From contig CAISHQ010000066.1 of the NCBI GenBank assembly GCA_903885195.1, forward strand, positions 1-64,000: 64,000 nt of DNA. The letters are read 5' to 3'. A program made the translations under genes and the position numbers. Each line of letters begins with the position of its first letter. Position 1 is the first letter of the stretch. This stretch comes from an uncultured Pseudomonadota bacterium. Lineage in GTDB: Bacteria; Pseudomonadota; Gammaproteobacteria; Steroidobacterales; Steroidobacteraceae. The notes beneath the pieces were generated by a model that had not been told where the DNA came from, searched no databases, and saw nothing but the letters and a program-made list of their open reading frames with translations. Shown here piece by piece: positions 38,860 through 46,026 of this stretch.

Positions 38860-40013
38860 ACCGTCTTGATCCGCGCACTGTCGCCGTGCGCGCCGGCTTG
38901 GAATCCGATGCCACGACCGGTGCGGTGGTTCCACCGATTCACCTGAGTTCAACCTACGCGTTCCCCTCGTTCGGTGTGAAGGGCAAGTACGATTACTCTC
39001 GATCCGGCAATCCGACGCGCGACCTGCTCGGGGAGGCGGTGCGGGAACTCGAGGGCGGAGCAGGTGCGGTTATTACTGCTTCAGGCATGGCTGCGATCGC
39101 CTTGATTGGTCAGGTGCTACCACGCGGGTCTCGAGTGGTCGCGCCGCACGACTGCTATGGCGGCACGTTTCGGCTGTTCACCGCGTGGCACAAGCGCGGC
39201 GATTTCGCGGTGGAGTTCGTCGACTACGGTAATGCCGACGCGCTGCGCACGAGTCTGAGTACGCCGGCTGCGCTGGTGTGGGTCGAAACGCCAAGCAACC
39301 CGTTGCTGCGCATCACGGACATTCGCGCAGTGGCGGCGGCAGCCAAGGCGGTCGGCGCACTAATCGTCGTCGACAACACCTTCATGTCGCCGGTGTTGCA
39401 GCAGCCGCTGCAACTCGGTGCCGATGTCGTCGTGCATTCGACCACCAAGTACCTCAATGGACACAGTGACGTTGTGGGTGGGGCAGTCGTTGCAGCGCGG
39501 GAGGATCTGCATCAACAGTTCGCGTGGTGGGCTAATGCCCTCGGCATGACGGGCGCTGCCTTCGACAGTTTTCTTACCCTGCGTGGCATTCGCACGCTGC
39601 ATGCGCGCATGGCGTTGCACGAAAGCAATGCCGTTGCGCTGGCGAGTCACCTTGCCACGGCGCCTGGCGTGCGCAAGGTGTACTACCCCGGCCTTTCGAC
39701 CCATCCCGGGCATGTGCTTGCGAAGACCCAGCAGAGCGGCTTCGGGGCGATGTTATCGATCGAGCTCGACGGGGGGGTGCCTGCCGTCGAGCGTTTCGTC
39801 GCTGCGCTCGAGTTGTTCTCGCTGGCCGAGTCGCTCGGCGGCGTGGAGAGTCTGATTGCACATCCGGCGACGATGACCCATGCGGCAATGGAGCCGGCTG
39901 CGCGGGCGGCGGCTGGACTCGTGGACGGCTTGCTGCGTCTGTCGATCGGCATTGAGGCGATCGAGGACTTGCGAGCCGATCTCGACTCCGGCCTCGCGGC
40001 GCTGCGACGCTAA
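38856..40013 (+). CDS. metB: Cystathionine gamma-synthase-type PLP enzyme
   Basis: HSTTKYLNGHSDVVGG, SSTYAFPSFGVKGKYDYSRSGNPTR. Confidence 0.9.
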   Translation: MNRLDPRTVAVRAGLESDATTGAVVPPIHLSSTYAFPSFGVKGKYDYSRSGNPTRDLLGEAVRELEGGAGAVITASGMAAIALIGQVLPRGSRVVAPHDCYGGTFRLFTAWHKRGDFAVEFVDYGNADALRTSLSTPAALVWVETPSNPLLRITDIRAVAAAAKAVGALIVVDNTFMSPVLQQPLQLGADVVVHSTTKYLNGHSDVVGGAVVAAREDLHQQFAWWANALGMTGAAFDSFLTLRGIRTLHARMALHESNAVALASHLATAPGVRKVYYPGLSTHPGHVLAKTQQSGFGAMLSIELDGGVPAVERFVAALELFSLAESLGGVESLIAHPATMTHAAMEPAARAAAGLVDGLLRLSIGIEAIEDLRADLDSGLAALRR

Positions 40014-41068
40014 CCCAGCTTCGCGATCACCGCATCGCCCATGCCGCGCGTGTTCAGCACTGCGGCAGAGTCCGTCGTCAGATCGGCGGTGCGAGCGCCG
40101 GCCTCGAGCGCCGCGTTGACGGCCGCTTCGATCTGCAGCGCCTCACGCTCGAGACCGAGCGAGTGTCGCAGCAGCAGTGCGGCACTCAAGATGGTGCCGC
40201 AGGGGTTGGCAATCCCGCGACCGGCGATGTCGGGCGCGGATCCGTGGATCGGTTCGTACAAGCCGCGACGCCCATCGCCAAGCGCTGCCGAGGGCAGCAC
40301 GCCAAGGGAGCCTGCGAGCATGGCCGCTTCGTCCGTCAGCACATCGCCAAAGAGATTCTCGGTGAGGATGACGTCGAAGTCGCGAGGCCGTCGGATCAAG
40401 TGCATGGCTGCGGAATCGACGAACATGTGTTCGATCGACACACCGGGAAACTCCGCATCGATTACGCGCTGACTGACTTCGCGCCACAGACGGGAGGTCT
40501 CGAGCACGTTGGACTTGTCGACTTGGGTGATGCGCCCGCGGCGTTGGCGAGCGAGGTGCCCAGCGACCCGCGTGATGCGCTCGATTTCAGGGACTGTGTA
40601 GGCGCACTCGTCGACGGCGCGGTCACCCTCCCGCCACTTGCGACCGAAATAAATGCCACCCGTCAGTTCGCGAACGAACAGCATGTCGACGCCATCGATG
40701 ATCTCCGCCTTGATGGTGGAGGAGTCACGCAGCGCCGGAATGACCTTGACCGGCCGAAGGTTCGCGTAGACGCCAAGGGCCGAGCGCAGGCGCAGCAGTG
40801 CCGCTTCCGGGCGCACGGGAGCCTTGGGGCCCCACTTCGGTCCGCCGATGGCACCGAGCAACACGCCATCGGCTGCCAAGCAGCCCTCTAGTGTTGCGGG
40901 CGGCAAGCCGTCGCCGAACTCGTCGATGGCCACACCGCCGAAGGGAAGGTGCTCGAGAACGAACTCGTGATCGTGCAGGGTGGCCATGCGTTCGAGCACG
41001 CGCACCGCCTCAGCAATCACCTCGGGGCCGATGCCGTCGCCCCCGAGTACGGCAATACGCGCTTTCAT
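40010..41068 (-). CDS. leuB: 3-isopropylmalate dehydrogenase
   Basis: [34 protein letters not shown]. Confidence 0.98.
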
Positions 41069-41643
41069 GCGCCTCGGCGCGCTTCGTACGCTTCGATGGC
41101 GGCGTTCTTCGAGAGCAGAAAGCCGAGTTCATCGACGCCGTTAATGAGGCAATACCGCGCGAACGGATCGATGGGGAAGCCGACGGGCGCTTGACCCGGC
41201 AGCGTCAACGTCGCGGTCTGCAGGTCGATGCTTATTTCGGCACCCGGATTGGCGATCAGCCAGGCATGCGTCGCGGCATCGACGACGATGGGCAGCAAGC
41301 CGTTCTTCAAAGAATTGTTGCGGAAGATGTCGGCGATCTCGGTGCTAATGACCGCTTGGATGCCATAGTCGAGCAAGGCCCATGGGGCGTGCTCGCGCGA
41401 GGAGCCACAGCCGACGTTTCGACCGGCCACCAGGATGCGGCATCCCTGAGCCGCGGGCGTATTGAGGATGAAGTCGGCGCGAGGCGCGCCATTGGCGTCA
41501 TAGCGCCAGTCGGCGAACAGCTGCTGGCCGAGACCTTCTTTGGTGGTCGTGGTGAGGAACCGGCCAGGGATGATCTGGTCGGTGTCGATGTTGGTCGAGG
41601 GCATCACGACCGTGCGGGAGCGAATGGATGTGATCGGGTTCAT
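41065..41643 (-). CDS. leuD: 3-isopropylmalate dehydratase small subunit
   Basis: [26 protein letters not shown]. Confidence 0.98.
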
Positions 41644-41656
41644 GAGGATCTCCGTA

Positions 41657-43066
41657 TCAGCCGTTGAGCAGTTCGCGCGGGTCGGTCACCCGTCCGCGAA
41701 TCGCCGACGCTGCGGCGGTCTCGGGACTCGCGAGCAGGGTGCGCGCCCCGACGCCTTGCCGTCCCTCGAAATTGCGATTGCTGGTGCTGACGGAGTACTC
41801 GCCCTTGGCCACGGTATCGCCGTTCATGCCGAGGCACATGGAGCAGCCCGACTCGCGCCACTCCGCGCCGGCCTCCTGGAACACATGGTGCAAGCCCTCA
41901 GCTTCGGCGAGGCGCTTGACCTCCTGCGACCCGGGGACGACCAGCATATGCACGCCTTGTGCGACCTTGTGGCCACGGAGCACGCGCGCCGCTGCGCGCA
42001 GATCGGACAGTCGGCCGTTGGTGCAACTGCCGACGAACACCACGTTGACGGGCGCATTGCGGATCGGCTCGCCGGCATTGAGCCCCATGTAGCGCATGGC
42101 GGCATCGAACACCGGGTCGCCGCGTCGGTCCGGGATGTTGCCGGTTACCGGGACGACCATCCCGGGGTTGGTGCCGTAGGTCACCATCGGTTCGAGGGCT
42201 GCGCCGTCAATGTCGATGCGCTTGTCGAACCGAGCACCTTCGTCGGTTGGGAGCGTGCGCCAGTGGGACACCGCGGCGTCCCATGCTGCTCCCTTCGGCG
42301 AGCGCGGCCGATCCGCGAGATACGCGAAGGTGGTCTCGTCCGGCGCGATCATGCCGGCGCGGGCGCCGGCCTCGATCGACATGTTGCACACCGTCATGCG
42401 CTCTTCCATGGACATCGCGCGAACGGCTGCGCCGCGATATTCGATGACGTGTCCCGTGCCGCCGGAAACGCCGAGCTGCCCAATGATCGCCAAGATCAGA
42501 TCTTTGGGCGTCACGCCGGTGGCCAACTGTCCGGCCACTTCGACAGCCAGCGTCTTCGCCTTCTTCTGCAACAGACACTGAGTCGCCAGCACGTGACCGA
42601 CTTCCGTCGTGCCGATGCCGAAGGCGAGGGCACCGAACGCGCCATGGGTGGACGTGTGGCTGTCGCCGCAGACGATGGTCTTGCCCGGCTGGGTGACGCC
42701 GAGTTCGGGGCCAATGATATGGACGATGCCGCGGCGTTCATCCTGCAGGCCGAGCAGTTCGACGCCAAACTCGGCACAATTCTTCTCGAGCTGGCGAATC
42801 TGCTTGGCCGCCGACTCGATCGTGATCGGCGCACCGCCGAACACCTGCTCGGTGCGCGTCGGCGTGGCGTGATCCATGGTGGCGAGAGTGAGATCGGGAC
42901 GCCTGACTTTCAGTCCCCGCTCGCGAAGCACCGAAAACGCCTGCGGCGAGGTGACCTCGTGGGTCAGGTGCAGGTCGATGAAGATCACGGCCGGCGTATC
43001 GGCGGTCTCCGGCACGACCTCGTGGGCTTGCCACACTTTTTCGAACATCGTCTTCGGCTGGGACAT
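41657..43066 (-). CDS. leuC: 3-isopropylmalate dehydratase large subunit (start [12 protein letters not shown])
   Basis: [31 protein letters not shown]. Confidence 0.98.
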
Positions 43067-43101: not shown

Positions 43102-44643
43102 TCAGGCGGCCTTGCGCGACAACTCGATGCGGTTGATCACCTCGAGAAAGGCGCGCGTGGCGGACTCGACGATGTCGGTGGTCACGCTCGAGCCGCGGTA
43201 ACTGCGTTGGTTGAAATCGACATAGACAATGGCTTCGCCCTGCGCATCTTCGCCCTCCGAGAGACTGCGCAACTCGAACTTCCGCAATACGGGCCGCAGT
43301 CCGGTCGCTGCCTCGATGGACTTGAACGCCGCATCCACAGGGCCGTCCCCGGACGCGCTGCGCTCGATGACCGAGCCATCGGCATGACGCAGTGTGACGG
43401 TGGCCTGACCTCCTGCCGGCGATGAACTCGTCGTCAACTCGGCAAGACTCCAAGGACCGGAGTCGGCGCCCTCCGAGCGCAGCACCAGCGCTTCGATGTC
43501 GCCATCGAAGAGTTCCTTTTTCTTGTCGGCGAGGGCCTTGAACTCCTCGAAGACGCGGGCGAATTCGGCATCGCCAAGCTCGAAGCCGAGTTCCTTGATC
43601 CGTTCGCGAAGTGCATGCCGCCCGCTGTGCTTGCCGAGCACGAGCGACGAGCGGGTCAGGCCGACGTCCTGCGGCCGCATGATTTCGTAGGTGCTGGCGT
43701 TCTTCAGCATGCCGTGCTGATGAATGCCCGACTCGTGGGCGAATGCGTTCTCGCCGACGATCGCCTTGTTGCGCGGTATCGGCATCCCCGTGATGCTCGA
43801 CACCAATCGTGAGACCGGATAGAGCTTCTGTGAATTGATTCCCGTCTGAGCGTTGAAAAACGTCTCGCGGGTGCGCAGCGCCATCACCACCTCTTCGAGC
43901 GAGCAGTTGCCTGCGCGCTCGCCGATGCCGTTGATCGTGCACTCGATCTGCCGTGCGCCGGCGACCACGGCCATCAGGCTATTGGCGACCGCCATGCCGA
44001 GATCGTCGTGGCAATGCACCGACAGTCGTGCACGGTCGATGTTGCGAACGTTCTTGCGCAGGTAGCGAAAGAGCTCGGCAAACTCGTGCGGCACGGTGTA
44101 GCCGACCGTATCCGGGATGTTGACGGTGGTGGCACCGGCGTCGATCACGGCTTCGACCACCTGCGCGAGGAACTCGAGCTCGGTGCGCGAAGCGTCCTCC
44201 GGCGAGAACTCGACGTCCTCGCAAAGGTCACGCGCCATCTTCACGCCCTCGACGGCGCTGCGGATGATCTCGTCCTTGGCCATGTTCAGCTTGTACTGAC
44301 GGTGGATGGCGCTGGTGGCGAGAAAGACATGGATTCGCCGCCGGGCGGCAGGGGCGACGGCGCGGGCCACTTTCTCGATGTCATCGCGCGTAGCTCGGGC
44401 AAGCCCACAGATGATCGGTCCCTGGACCTCGCGGGCGACGGCATTCACCGACTCCCAGTCGCCCGGCGAGGCCGCTGGAAATCCGGCCTCGATGACATCC
44501 ACGCCGAGTTCCGCTAGCGCCTTCGCCACGCGCAGCTTTTCCGCCTGCGTCATGCTGCAGCCCGGCGCCTGTTCGCCATCGCGCAGGGTGGTGTCGAAGA
44601 TCATTACTCGGTCGGCTGAGGAGGTCATTGAAGCCGTCTCCAT
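43102..44643 (-). CDS. leuA: 2-isopropylmalate synthase
   Basis: [18 protein letters not shown]. Confidence 0.97.
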
Positions 44644-44669
44644 GTGGTTCCGTGGTTGGGGGCGCGGTA

Positions 44670-45659
44670 TCAGCGTCCCTGGTCGAGCCAGGGCATGCGA
44701 CCGCGCAGCGCGAAACCGACTTTCTCGATCGGTCGGTCGAGGTCGGCCTTGAGCAGCTTGTCGTACTTCTTGCGGCCGCTGGCGTTCTCTCGGATCCACT
44801 GGCGGGCGAATTTGCCCTGCTGGATTTCCTTGAGGATCTTGCGCATCTCGGCCTTGGTCTGCCGAGTGACCACGCGCGGACCGCGGGTGAGATCGCCGTA
44901 CTTGGCCGTCTCGCTGATGAATTTGTGCATCTTCCAAATGCCGCCTTCATGCAGCAGGTCGACGATGAGCTTCAGCTCGTGCATGCACTCGAAGTAGGCC
45001 ACCTCGGGCTGGTAGCCGGCCTCGACCAGTGTCTCGAAACCCTTGACCACGAGCTCGGTGGCGCCACCGCAAAGCACCGCCTGTTCGCCGAACAGATCCG
45101 TCTCGGTCTCCTCTGCGAAAGTCGTCTTCAAGACGCCGCCGCGGGTGCCGCCAATACCATGGGCGTAGGAGAGGGCCTTGCCGAAGCCTTTACCGGACGC
45201 ATCCTGATACACGGCGATGAGACAGGGGACTCCGCGGCCCTGCTGGTACTGACGACGGACGAGATCGCCCGGGCCCTTCGGTGCGATGAGCACGACGTCG
45301 AGATCCTTGCGCGGCCGAATCTGCTTGAAGTGAATGTTGAAGCCGTGGGCGAAGAGCAAGGTGGCGCCCTTCTTCAGGTTGCCGACGACGGCGTTATACA
45401 GCGACTTTTGCGCGAGATCCGGGGCGAGCATCGCAATGAGATCAGCACCCTTGACCGCGTCGGCCGGTTCAGCAACGGGCAGACCGTCCTTCTTGGCCTT
45501 CTTCCAGCTGTCACCCTTGCGTACGCCGATGACGACGTCAAAGCCGCTGTCCTTGAGATTGAGCGCATGTGCGCGGCCCTGGCTGCCATAGCCGAGCACG
45601 CAGATCCGTGCACCTTTCAGCGCCTTCTTGTCGACGTCCTTCTGAGAAAACAGCTTCAT
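44670..45659 (-). CDS. ilvC: Ketol-acid reductoisomerase
   Basis: [44 protein letters not shown]. Confidence 0.98.
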
Positions 45660-45692
45660 CTCGCACTCCCGTGTTTGCTTGCTGCGAAAACC

Positions 45693-45732
45693 AAAAAAAA
45701 ACCCCGCATCGGCTTGCGGCCGGTGCGGGGTT
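45693..45732 (-). terminator. Intrinsic terminator/attenuator in the ilvC-leuACDB leader
   Basis: On minus strand AACCCCGCACCGGCCGCAAGCCGATGCGGGGTTTTTTTTT: 14-bp stem (9 outer + 5 inner with one GU), 5-nt loop, T9 tract, about 35 nt before ilvC. Confidence 0.93.
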
Positions 45733-45772
45733 CGTGTGATCTCTGCTCGCCGTCGGATCAGGACCTTTCAGG

Positions 45773-45898
45773 TCACGCCCCGACTGGCAACCCGCGCCGG
45801 CCAGCCTCGAGGGCTAGCTCTAGCAGTAGCGAACGCCCGACGACGACCTGCGGAAGGTCGGCGTTGTTGCGAACAGCTTGGACTGCGACGCGAATCAT
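45773..45898 (-). CDS. Val/Leu-rich attenuator leader peptide (41 aa), not in supplied ORF list
   Basis: MIRVAVQAVRNNADLPQVVVGRSLLLELALEAGRRGLPVGA*; VVV and LLLELAL with three CTA codons; followed by terminator. Confidence 0.88.
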   Translation of the reverse strand: MIRVAVQAVRNNADLPQVVVGRSLLLELALEAGRRGLPVGA

Positions 45899-45906
45899 GC
45901 GGCGAA

Positions 45907-45916
45907 TGTGATCACA
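45907..45916. promoter_or_regulatory. Perfect palindrome TGTGATCACA just upstream of the leader peptide
   Basis: Lies between TTGACA (minus, 45930-45935) and the leader ATG. Confidence 0.4.
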
Positions 45917-46026
45917 CCGCGCGCAGCCTTGTCAATCTGCGGTGAGCTCGTCGCAGGCGACGCAAGTCTTCGACTAGACCGCCGTACCCAGCACGTTTCG
46001 CGCGCGTTTTTCGCTACCATGCCGTC

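Follow-up and report, generated by a model that had tools for sequence, protein, structure and literature searches.

Leader, promoter and genes of the ilvC-leuACDB locus

The window, the whole 64,000-nucleotide stretch of DNA analysed here, carries ilvC, leuA, leuC, leuD and leuB in this order on the minus strand. The genes are separated by short gaps and presumably share one operon transcript; a convergent gene follows leuB. The ilvD gene is also within the window, on the opposite strand, and the acetohydroxyacid synthase (AHAS) gene is on another contig. The genes were assigned as follows.

44670–45659, minus strand: ilvC, ketol-acid reductoisomerase (NCBIfam NF004017/TIGR00465), with a GGGAG ribosome-binding site before its ATG at 45659
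43102–44643, minus strand: leuA, 2-isopropylmalate synthase (TIGR00973, above cut-off)
41657–43057, minus strand: leuC, isopropylmalate dehydratase large subunit (TIGR00170, above cut-off)
41065–41643, minus strand: leuD, isopropylmalate dehydratase small subunit (TIGR00171, above cut-off)
40010–41068, minus strand: leuB, 3-isopropylmalate dehydrogenase, last of the run (TIGR00169, above cut-off, and gene order)

Upstream of ilvC, the minus strand reads in order first a 41-codon ORF that contains an antiterminator arm, next a terminator with a run of nine U's, and then ilvC itself. When the sequence was re-read, the 41-aa leader peptide, its stop codon, the hairpin, the T9 run and the ilvC start were all found where a preliminary description of this DNA had placed them. 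That description did not include the promoter upstream of the leader. The features of this part of the locus are listed below, together with their state in an alignment (A1) of 18 ilvC leaders from the window's genus.

45930–45935, minus strand: -35 hexamer TTGACA, intact in nearly all 18 aligned leaders
45906–45911, minus strand: -10 hexamer TCACAT, after an 18-bp spacer and preceded by TGn, ending 7 nt ahead of the leader ATG
45773–45898, minus strand: leader peptide ORF of 41 codons (MIRVAVQAVRNNADLPQVVVGRSLLLELALEAGRRGLPVGA), opening with ATG at 45898 and closing at 45773; orthologous leaders occur in the genus and the order
45815–45829, minus strand: control region CTA-CTG-CTA-GAG-CTA, with CTA at 45829-45827, 45823-45821 and 45817-45815; in the genus, CTA is enriched and concentrated at codons -7 to +2 relative to the last permissive stall site

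Throughout the genus the -10 box is conserved, with a TNNNAT-type sequence at 17-18 bp spacing. It lies 5-8 nt from the leader start codon, and the gap holds no Shine-Dalgarno-like sequence. Because of this short distance, the A of the leader ATG would stand at about +1, and the leader mRNA is probably leaderless, the start site being placed by promoter spacing. The distance between the -10 box and the start codon is 7-8 nt in several other families of the order and 22-55 nt in most other genera of the window's family. If the mRNA is leaderless, a probably leaderless branched-chain leader peptide is placed in the gammaproteobacteria.

An antisense open frame of 427 aa (window 44628-45911, plus strand) spans ilvC and the entire leader. 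This frame is probably spurious; if called by an annotator, it could hide the attenuator.

Alternative RNA structures in the leader

The leader RNA can be divided into four segments and an intermediate hairpin.

45812–45818, minus strand: segment 1, protector 5' arm (GCTAGCC), with compensatory changes across the 18 sequences
45800–45806, minus strand: protector 3' arm (GGCTGGC), overlapping segment 2, with compensatory changes across the 18 sequences
45789–45801, minus strand: segment 2, antiterminator 5' arm GCCGGCGCGGGTT, within the leader ORF, supported by pairing counts and by GCGGGT invariant in the 18 sequences
45752–45784, minus strand: intermediate hairpin, GTCGG (45784-45780) with CCGAC (45756-45752), spanning the stop codon, from the minimum free energy (MFE) fold
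45719–45732, minus strand: segment 3, antiterminator 3' arm and terminator 5' arm AACCCCGCACCGGC, near invariant
45700–45713, minus strand: segment 4, terminator 3' arm GCCGATGCGGGGTT, from the alignment and covariation
45693–45701, minus strand: intrinsic terminator U9 run, of which the first two U's are paired in the stem; a U-run is present in 18/18 leaders

The terminator (45732-45719 with 45713-45700) has 13 pairs round one C-A mismatch, so that the 14-bp hairpin plus T9 proposed earlier is present but its length was slightly generous. The proposed antiterminator was confirmed as described: 45801-45789 pairs with 45732-45719, leaving one C-A mismatch and one bulged C. A protector inside the leader was also recovered, with seven pairs between 45818-45812 and 45806-45800. 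The protector and the terminator coexist in the MFE fold (-97.9 kcal/mol), which is better than shuffled sequences (z = -2.89, 1/200 shuffles equally good). In the fold calculation, the full-length RNA without a ribosome is all terminator. Before segment 4 exists, the calculated ribosome-free pairing of the antiterminator ranges from 0.01 to 0.78. Termination without translation therefore depends either on the kinetics of folding or on the completed terminator; these thermodynamics do not show the protector beating the antiterminator before segment 4 is made, and we assume folding kinetics here, as in the classical model.

Conservation and covariation of both pairings

Almost every species of the genus, and much of the order, has the leader and terminator layout ahead of ilvC. 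Comparison of the orthologous ilvC upstream regions in the genus revealed leader peptides of 30-46 codons, mostly with a tail of the form ...G/S-R-C/R-G..., followed by the same terminator. The leader frame and its leucine codons are kept and the VVV run is not. An ORF upstream of a biosynthetic operon, with a conserved frame and enriched in Leu and CTA codons, is what would be expected of the leader ORF of a leu/ilv attenuator.

Across A1, no sequence departs from the antiterminator core GCGGGT, and the arm shared by the two structures hardly varies. Sequence differences do occur in the protector and the intermediate hairpin, with base changes that compensate each other (AU to GC, CG to GC, CG to UA and UA to GC). 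Cells in which both sides of a pair had changed numbered 22 for the protector, intermediate hairpin and terminator together (7.6 expected in shuffles) and 17 for the antiterminator and intermediate hairpin (6.9 in shuffles); neither count was attained in any of 500 column shuffles. Sliding the partner by one to three columns lowered the pairing from ~90% to 32-49%. Next to the intermediate hairpin, columns 54-57/97-100 change compensatorily in the genus; in the window's own sequence this outer stem is weak.

Segment 3 is able to pair with either segment 2 or segment 4 in the 18 sequences, which makes the antiterminator and the terminator mutually exclusive. The terminator mismatch is kept in 18/18 sequences, the same position being paired in the antiterminator in 17, and the bulged C of the antiterminator is likewise kept in 18/18, suggesting selection on both alternative pairings. 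It is this comparative evidence, and not the z-score, that is decisive for structure beyond chance in the aligned leaders.

Two of the loci differ in detail: in L006 and L010, GTCTG/CAGAC appears to lengthen the antiterminator helix (A1 columns 52-58 with 110-117), replacing the separate intermediate hairpin of the others. L003, from the species nearest to the window (97% identical IlvC), lacks ~80 nt between the CTA codons and the terminator. The deletion removes segment 2 and the leader stop; it may be a genuine loss of antitermination, or else the assembly is wrong at this point. We counted this close relative against the attenuator reading.

Leucine codons and the position of a stalled ribosome

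To describe codon usage, the leaders were compared with the window's neighbouring genes and, for the genus, with the longest ORFs around ilvC; about 2-3% of the leucine codons in genes overall are CTA. In the window leader, 3/7 Leu codons are CTA compared to 1.9% in the neighbouring genes (binomial P = 2e-4). The 18 genus leaders together have CTA at 50/129 Leu codons (39%), against 3.4% of the Leu codons in genus genes. In other genera and families, CTA makes up 2.4% of the leucine codons of 39 leaders, which have long CTG, CTC and CTT runs instead.

The effect of ribosome position was modelled by setting a ribosome on each codon in turn and masking the RNA up to 12 nt past the A-site codon. 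When this footprint was combined with folding, the antiterminator was permitted for stalls at the leucine control codons and abolished a few codons later in 18/18 leaders. The 13-codon permissive zone holds 44/50 CTA codons, where 17 were expected and the maximum in 10,000 permutations was 31. For all leucine codons, 86 fell in the 13-codon boundary zone compared to 44 expected. The leader stop lies 13 codons beyond the boundary in 15/18 leaders. In the model and the permutation, the control codons thus occupy positions at which a stalled ribosome would free the antiterminator arm. The footprint result, the clustering of Leu and CTA codons and the spacing of the stop together make up the geometry of ribosome-mediated transcription attenuation. 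A simpler form of the comparison, in which CTA was asked to lie solely before the boundary, was not significant (45 before and 5 after versus 62/17, P = 0.10); the position-window permutation was the stronger.

We considered whether the locus is a plain intrinsic terminator and leader without translational regulation, with the ORF accidental. A terminator alone would account for the hairpin and the U-run. The leader frame, the leucine codons, the antiterminator arm and the protector are, however, all conserved and covarying, and the placement of the Leu and CTA codons is far beyond permutation, which makes this explanation highly improbable.

The earlier reading of the leader as a Val/Leu peptide holds for leucine, a signal conserved in the genus via CUA, and does not hold for the VVV run, which is essentially private to the window. 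We nevertheless weighed a joint, multivalent attenuator with a second control site at the VVV run. The three GTC codons lie 9-11 codons before the boundary, within the permissive region, ilvC also serves valine and isoleucine synthesis, and some other members of the family have Val-rich leaders (L050, L051, L027). Against this, the genus does not conserve VVV, which is written in the common codon GTC, and we consider joint control unlikely. Valine as a conserved control was rejected for the genus. On the evidence of the alignment, the conserved signal is leucine read through the rare CUA codon, and not valine.

Proposed model of leucine-dependent attenuation

Very likely the element controls ilvC-leuACDB by ribosome-mediated transcription attenuation and senses the charging of leucyl-tRNA, chiefly of the CUA-reading isoacceptor. 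Conservation, covariation and codon placement argue for the leader-peptide attenuation of this operon that had been proposed before, although at the level of transcription and not, as then termed, translation. In the proposed mechanism, transcription would start at or a few bases from the leader AUG, and ribosomes would initiate on an essentially leaderless mRNA. With plentiful leucine, the ribosome would pass the CUA codons to the stop and mask segment 2 in its 3' half, whereupon segment 3 would pair with segment 4 and RNA polymerase would terminate at the U-run. With scarce leucine, a ribosome stalled on CUA would cover segment 1 and leave segment 2 free to pair with segment 3, allowing read-through into ilvC-leuACDB. 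If the leader is not translated, the protector (1:2) and the terminator (3:4) are expected to form by default.

This mechanism is already known; what is new is the unlisted attenuator and its lineage-specific CUA codon and leader variant. Closest in logic is the enterobacterial leuABCD attenuator (leuL, RF00512), with which the element shares a Leu-rich peptide, CUA control codons, protector/antiterminator/terminator logic and leu biosynthetic genes. It differs in having ilvC as the first gene, CUA codons that are spaced where those of leuL are adjacent, and an AUG probably at +1, and there is no usable sequence match between the two. In S. typhimurium leu, which has CUA codons, replacement by CUG makes the control less sensitive (Carter et al. 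1986, as cited in PMC1183508), and for E. coli the optimal leu control codon predicted by theory is CUA (PMC1183508). A switch to spaced CUA in the window's genus would be consistent with this selective-charging theory of codon choice. The genus-wide CUA, against common codons in the sister genera, amounts to a natural experiment on synonymous codon choice in attenuators, and the lineage-specific codon and leader variant renders codon-choice theory testable.

The putative leaderless start has counterparts elsewhere. In the C. glutamicum ilvBNC operon (ilvL), transcription begins one nucleotide from the start codon, there is no ribosome-binding site and hairpins compete (PMC11857589). That system resembles the present one in its branched-chain leader peptide, its leaderless start (probable here) and its competing hairpins; it belongs to a different phylum, has a Val-dominated 15-aa peptide and ilvB first, and no sequence relation was seen. 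In the S. meliloti trpLE(G) attenuator (rnTrpL / peTrpL), the leader ORF's AUG forms the 5' end of the RNA (PMC7298713), as promoter spacing suggests here; that system controls a Trp operon, and its terminated RNA and peptide act in trans as well. Proteobacterial ilv/leu attenuators of the same mechanism class were surveyed by comparative genomics by Vitreschak et al. 2004 (FEMS Microbiol Lett 234:357, as cited in PMC1262725), a survey that predates the metagenome-assembled genomes used here.

It is conceivable, although we hold it only tentatively, that within one family leucine sensing by the same ilvC attenuator was switched. Most genera would combine a 22-55 nt 5' leader with dense common leucine codons, and the window's genus a leaderless start with a few spaced rare CUA codons that read one tRNA isoacceptor. 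The terminated leader of ~200 nt would perhaps also have a role in trans, either as a small RNA or as a peptide.

Distribution and relation to known RNA families

A covariance model of A1 gave matches in 183/248 genomes of the order, which is an upper bound because the matches at E about 1e-6 and weaker, not individually counted as attenuators, include lone GC-rich terminators and antisense matches. Many strong matches lie directly before ilvC where both were located. In the window's own genome the model found solely the ilvC site and its antisense terminator match; the region before ilvB (AHAS) was read for a second attenuator and no Leu-rich leader with a terminator was evident. There were no plasmid relatives of the element, and a description of it in Steroidobacteraceae was not found in the open-licence literature.

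The window was compared with Rfam at permissive and gathering thresholds and yielded no member family (RF00512, Leu_leader, 16.3 bits, E = 1.5, against a cut-off of 50). At the gathering threshold, no match was obtained for 15 related loci. In its mode of action the element resembles the leu attenuators, yet it falls outside the RF00512 family. The attenuator is conserved across a gammaproteobacterial order, yet it is unlisted in Rfam and standard gene calling would miss it. These comparisons also bear on a metabolite riboswitch, a T-box or a protein-binding leader in which the Leu-rich ORF arose by chance, for which the structured 5' leader with its terminator might speak. The 15 loci without an Rfam family weigh against it, as does the absence of riboswitches and T-boxes from the window's permissive matches. 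Conservation here tracks codons and pairing, with no aptamer-like core, and we regard such a leader as scarcely credible.

In the Steroidobacter leaders L050 and L051, Ile/Val runs (TIVVVERVVVSGLL) replace the Leu runs, and the signal amino acid may therefore differ within the family. Two genera of the family seem to have no Leu-rich leader ORF and instead have a conserved palindromic box, TTGCATCATAAGAGATTCTGTGGTGCTATT, upstream of ilvC (loci L023, L026, L041, L043, L045 and L052; genomes G249, G029, G258, G251, G303, G324, G210, G338, G330, G274 and G025). The box resembles an operator for a transcription factor, which would have taken the place of attenuation. A GC hairpin is still present before ilvC in 5/6 aligned loci with the box.
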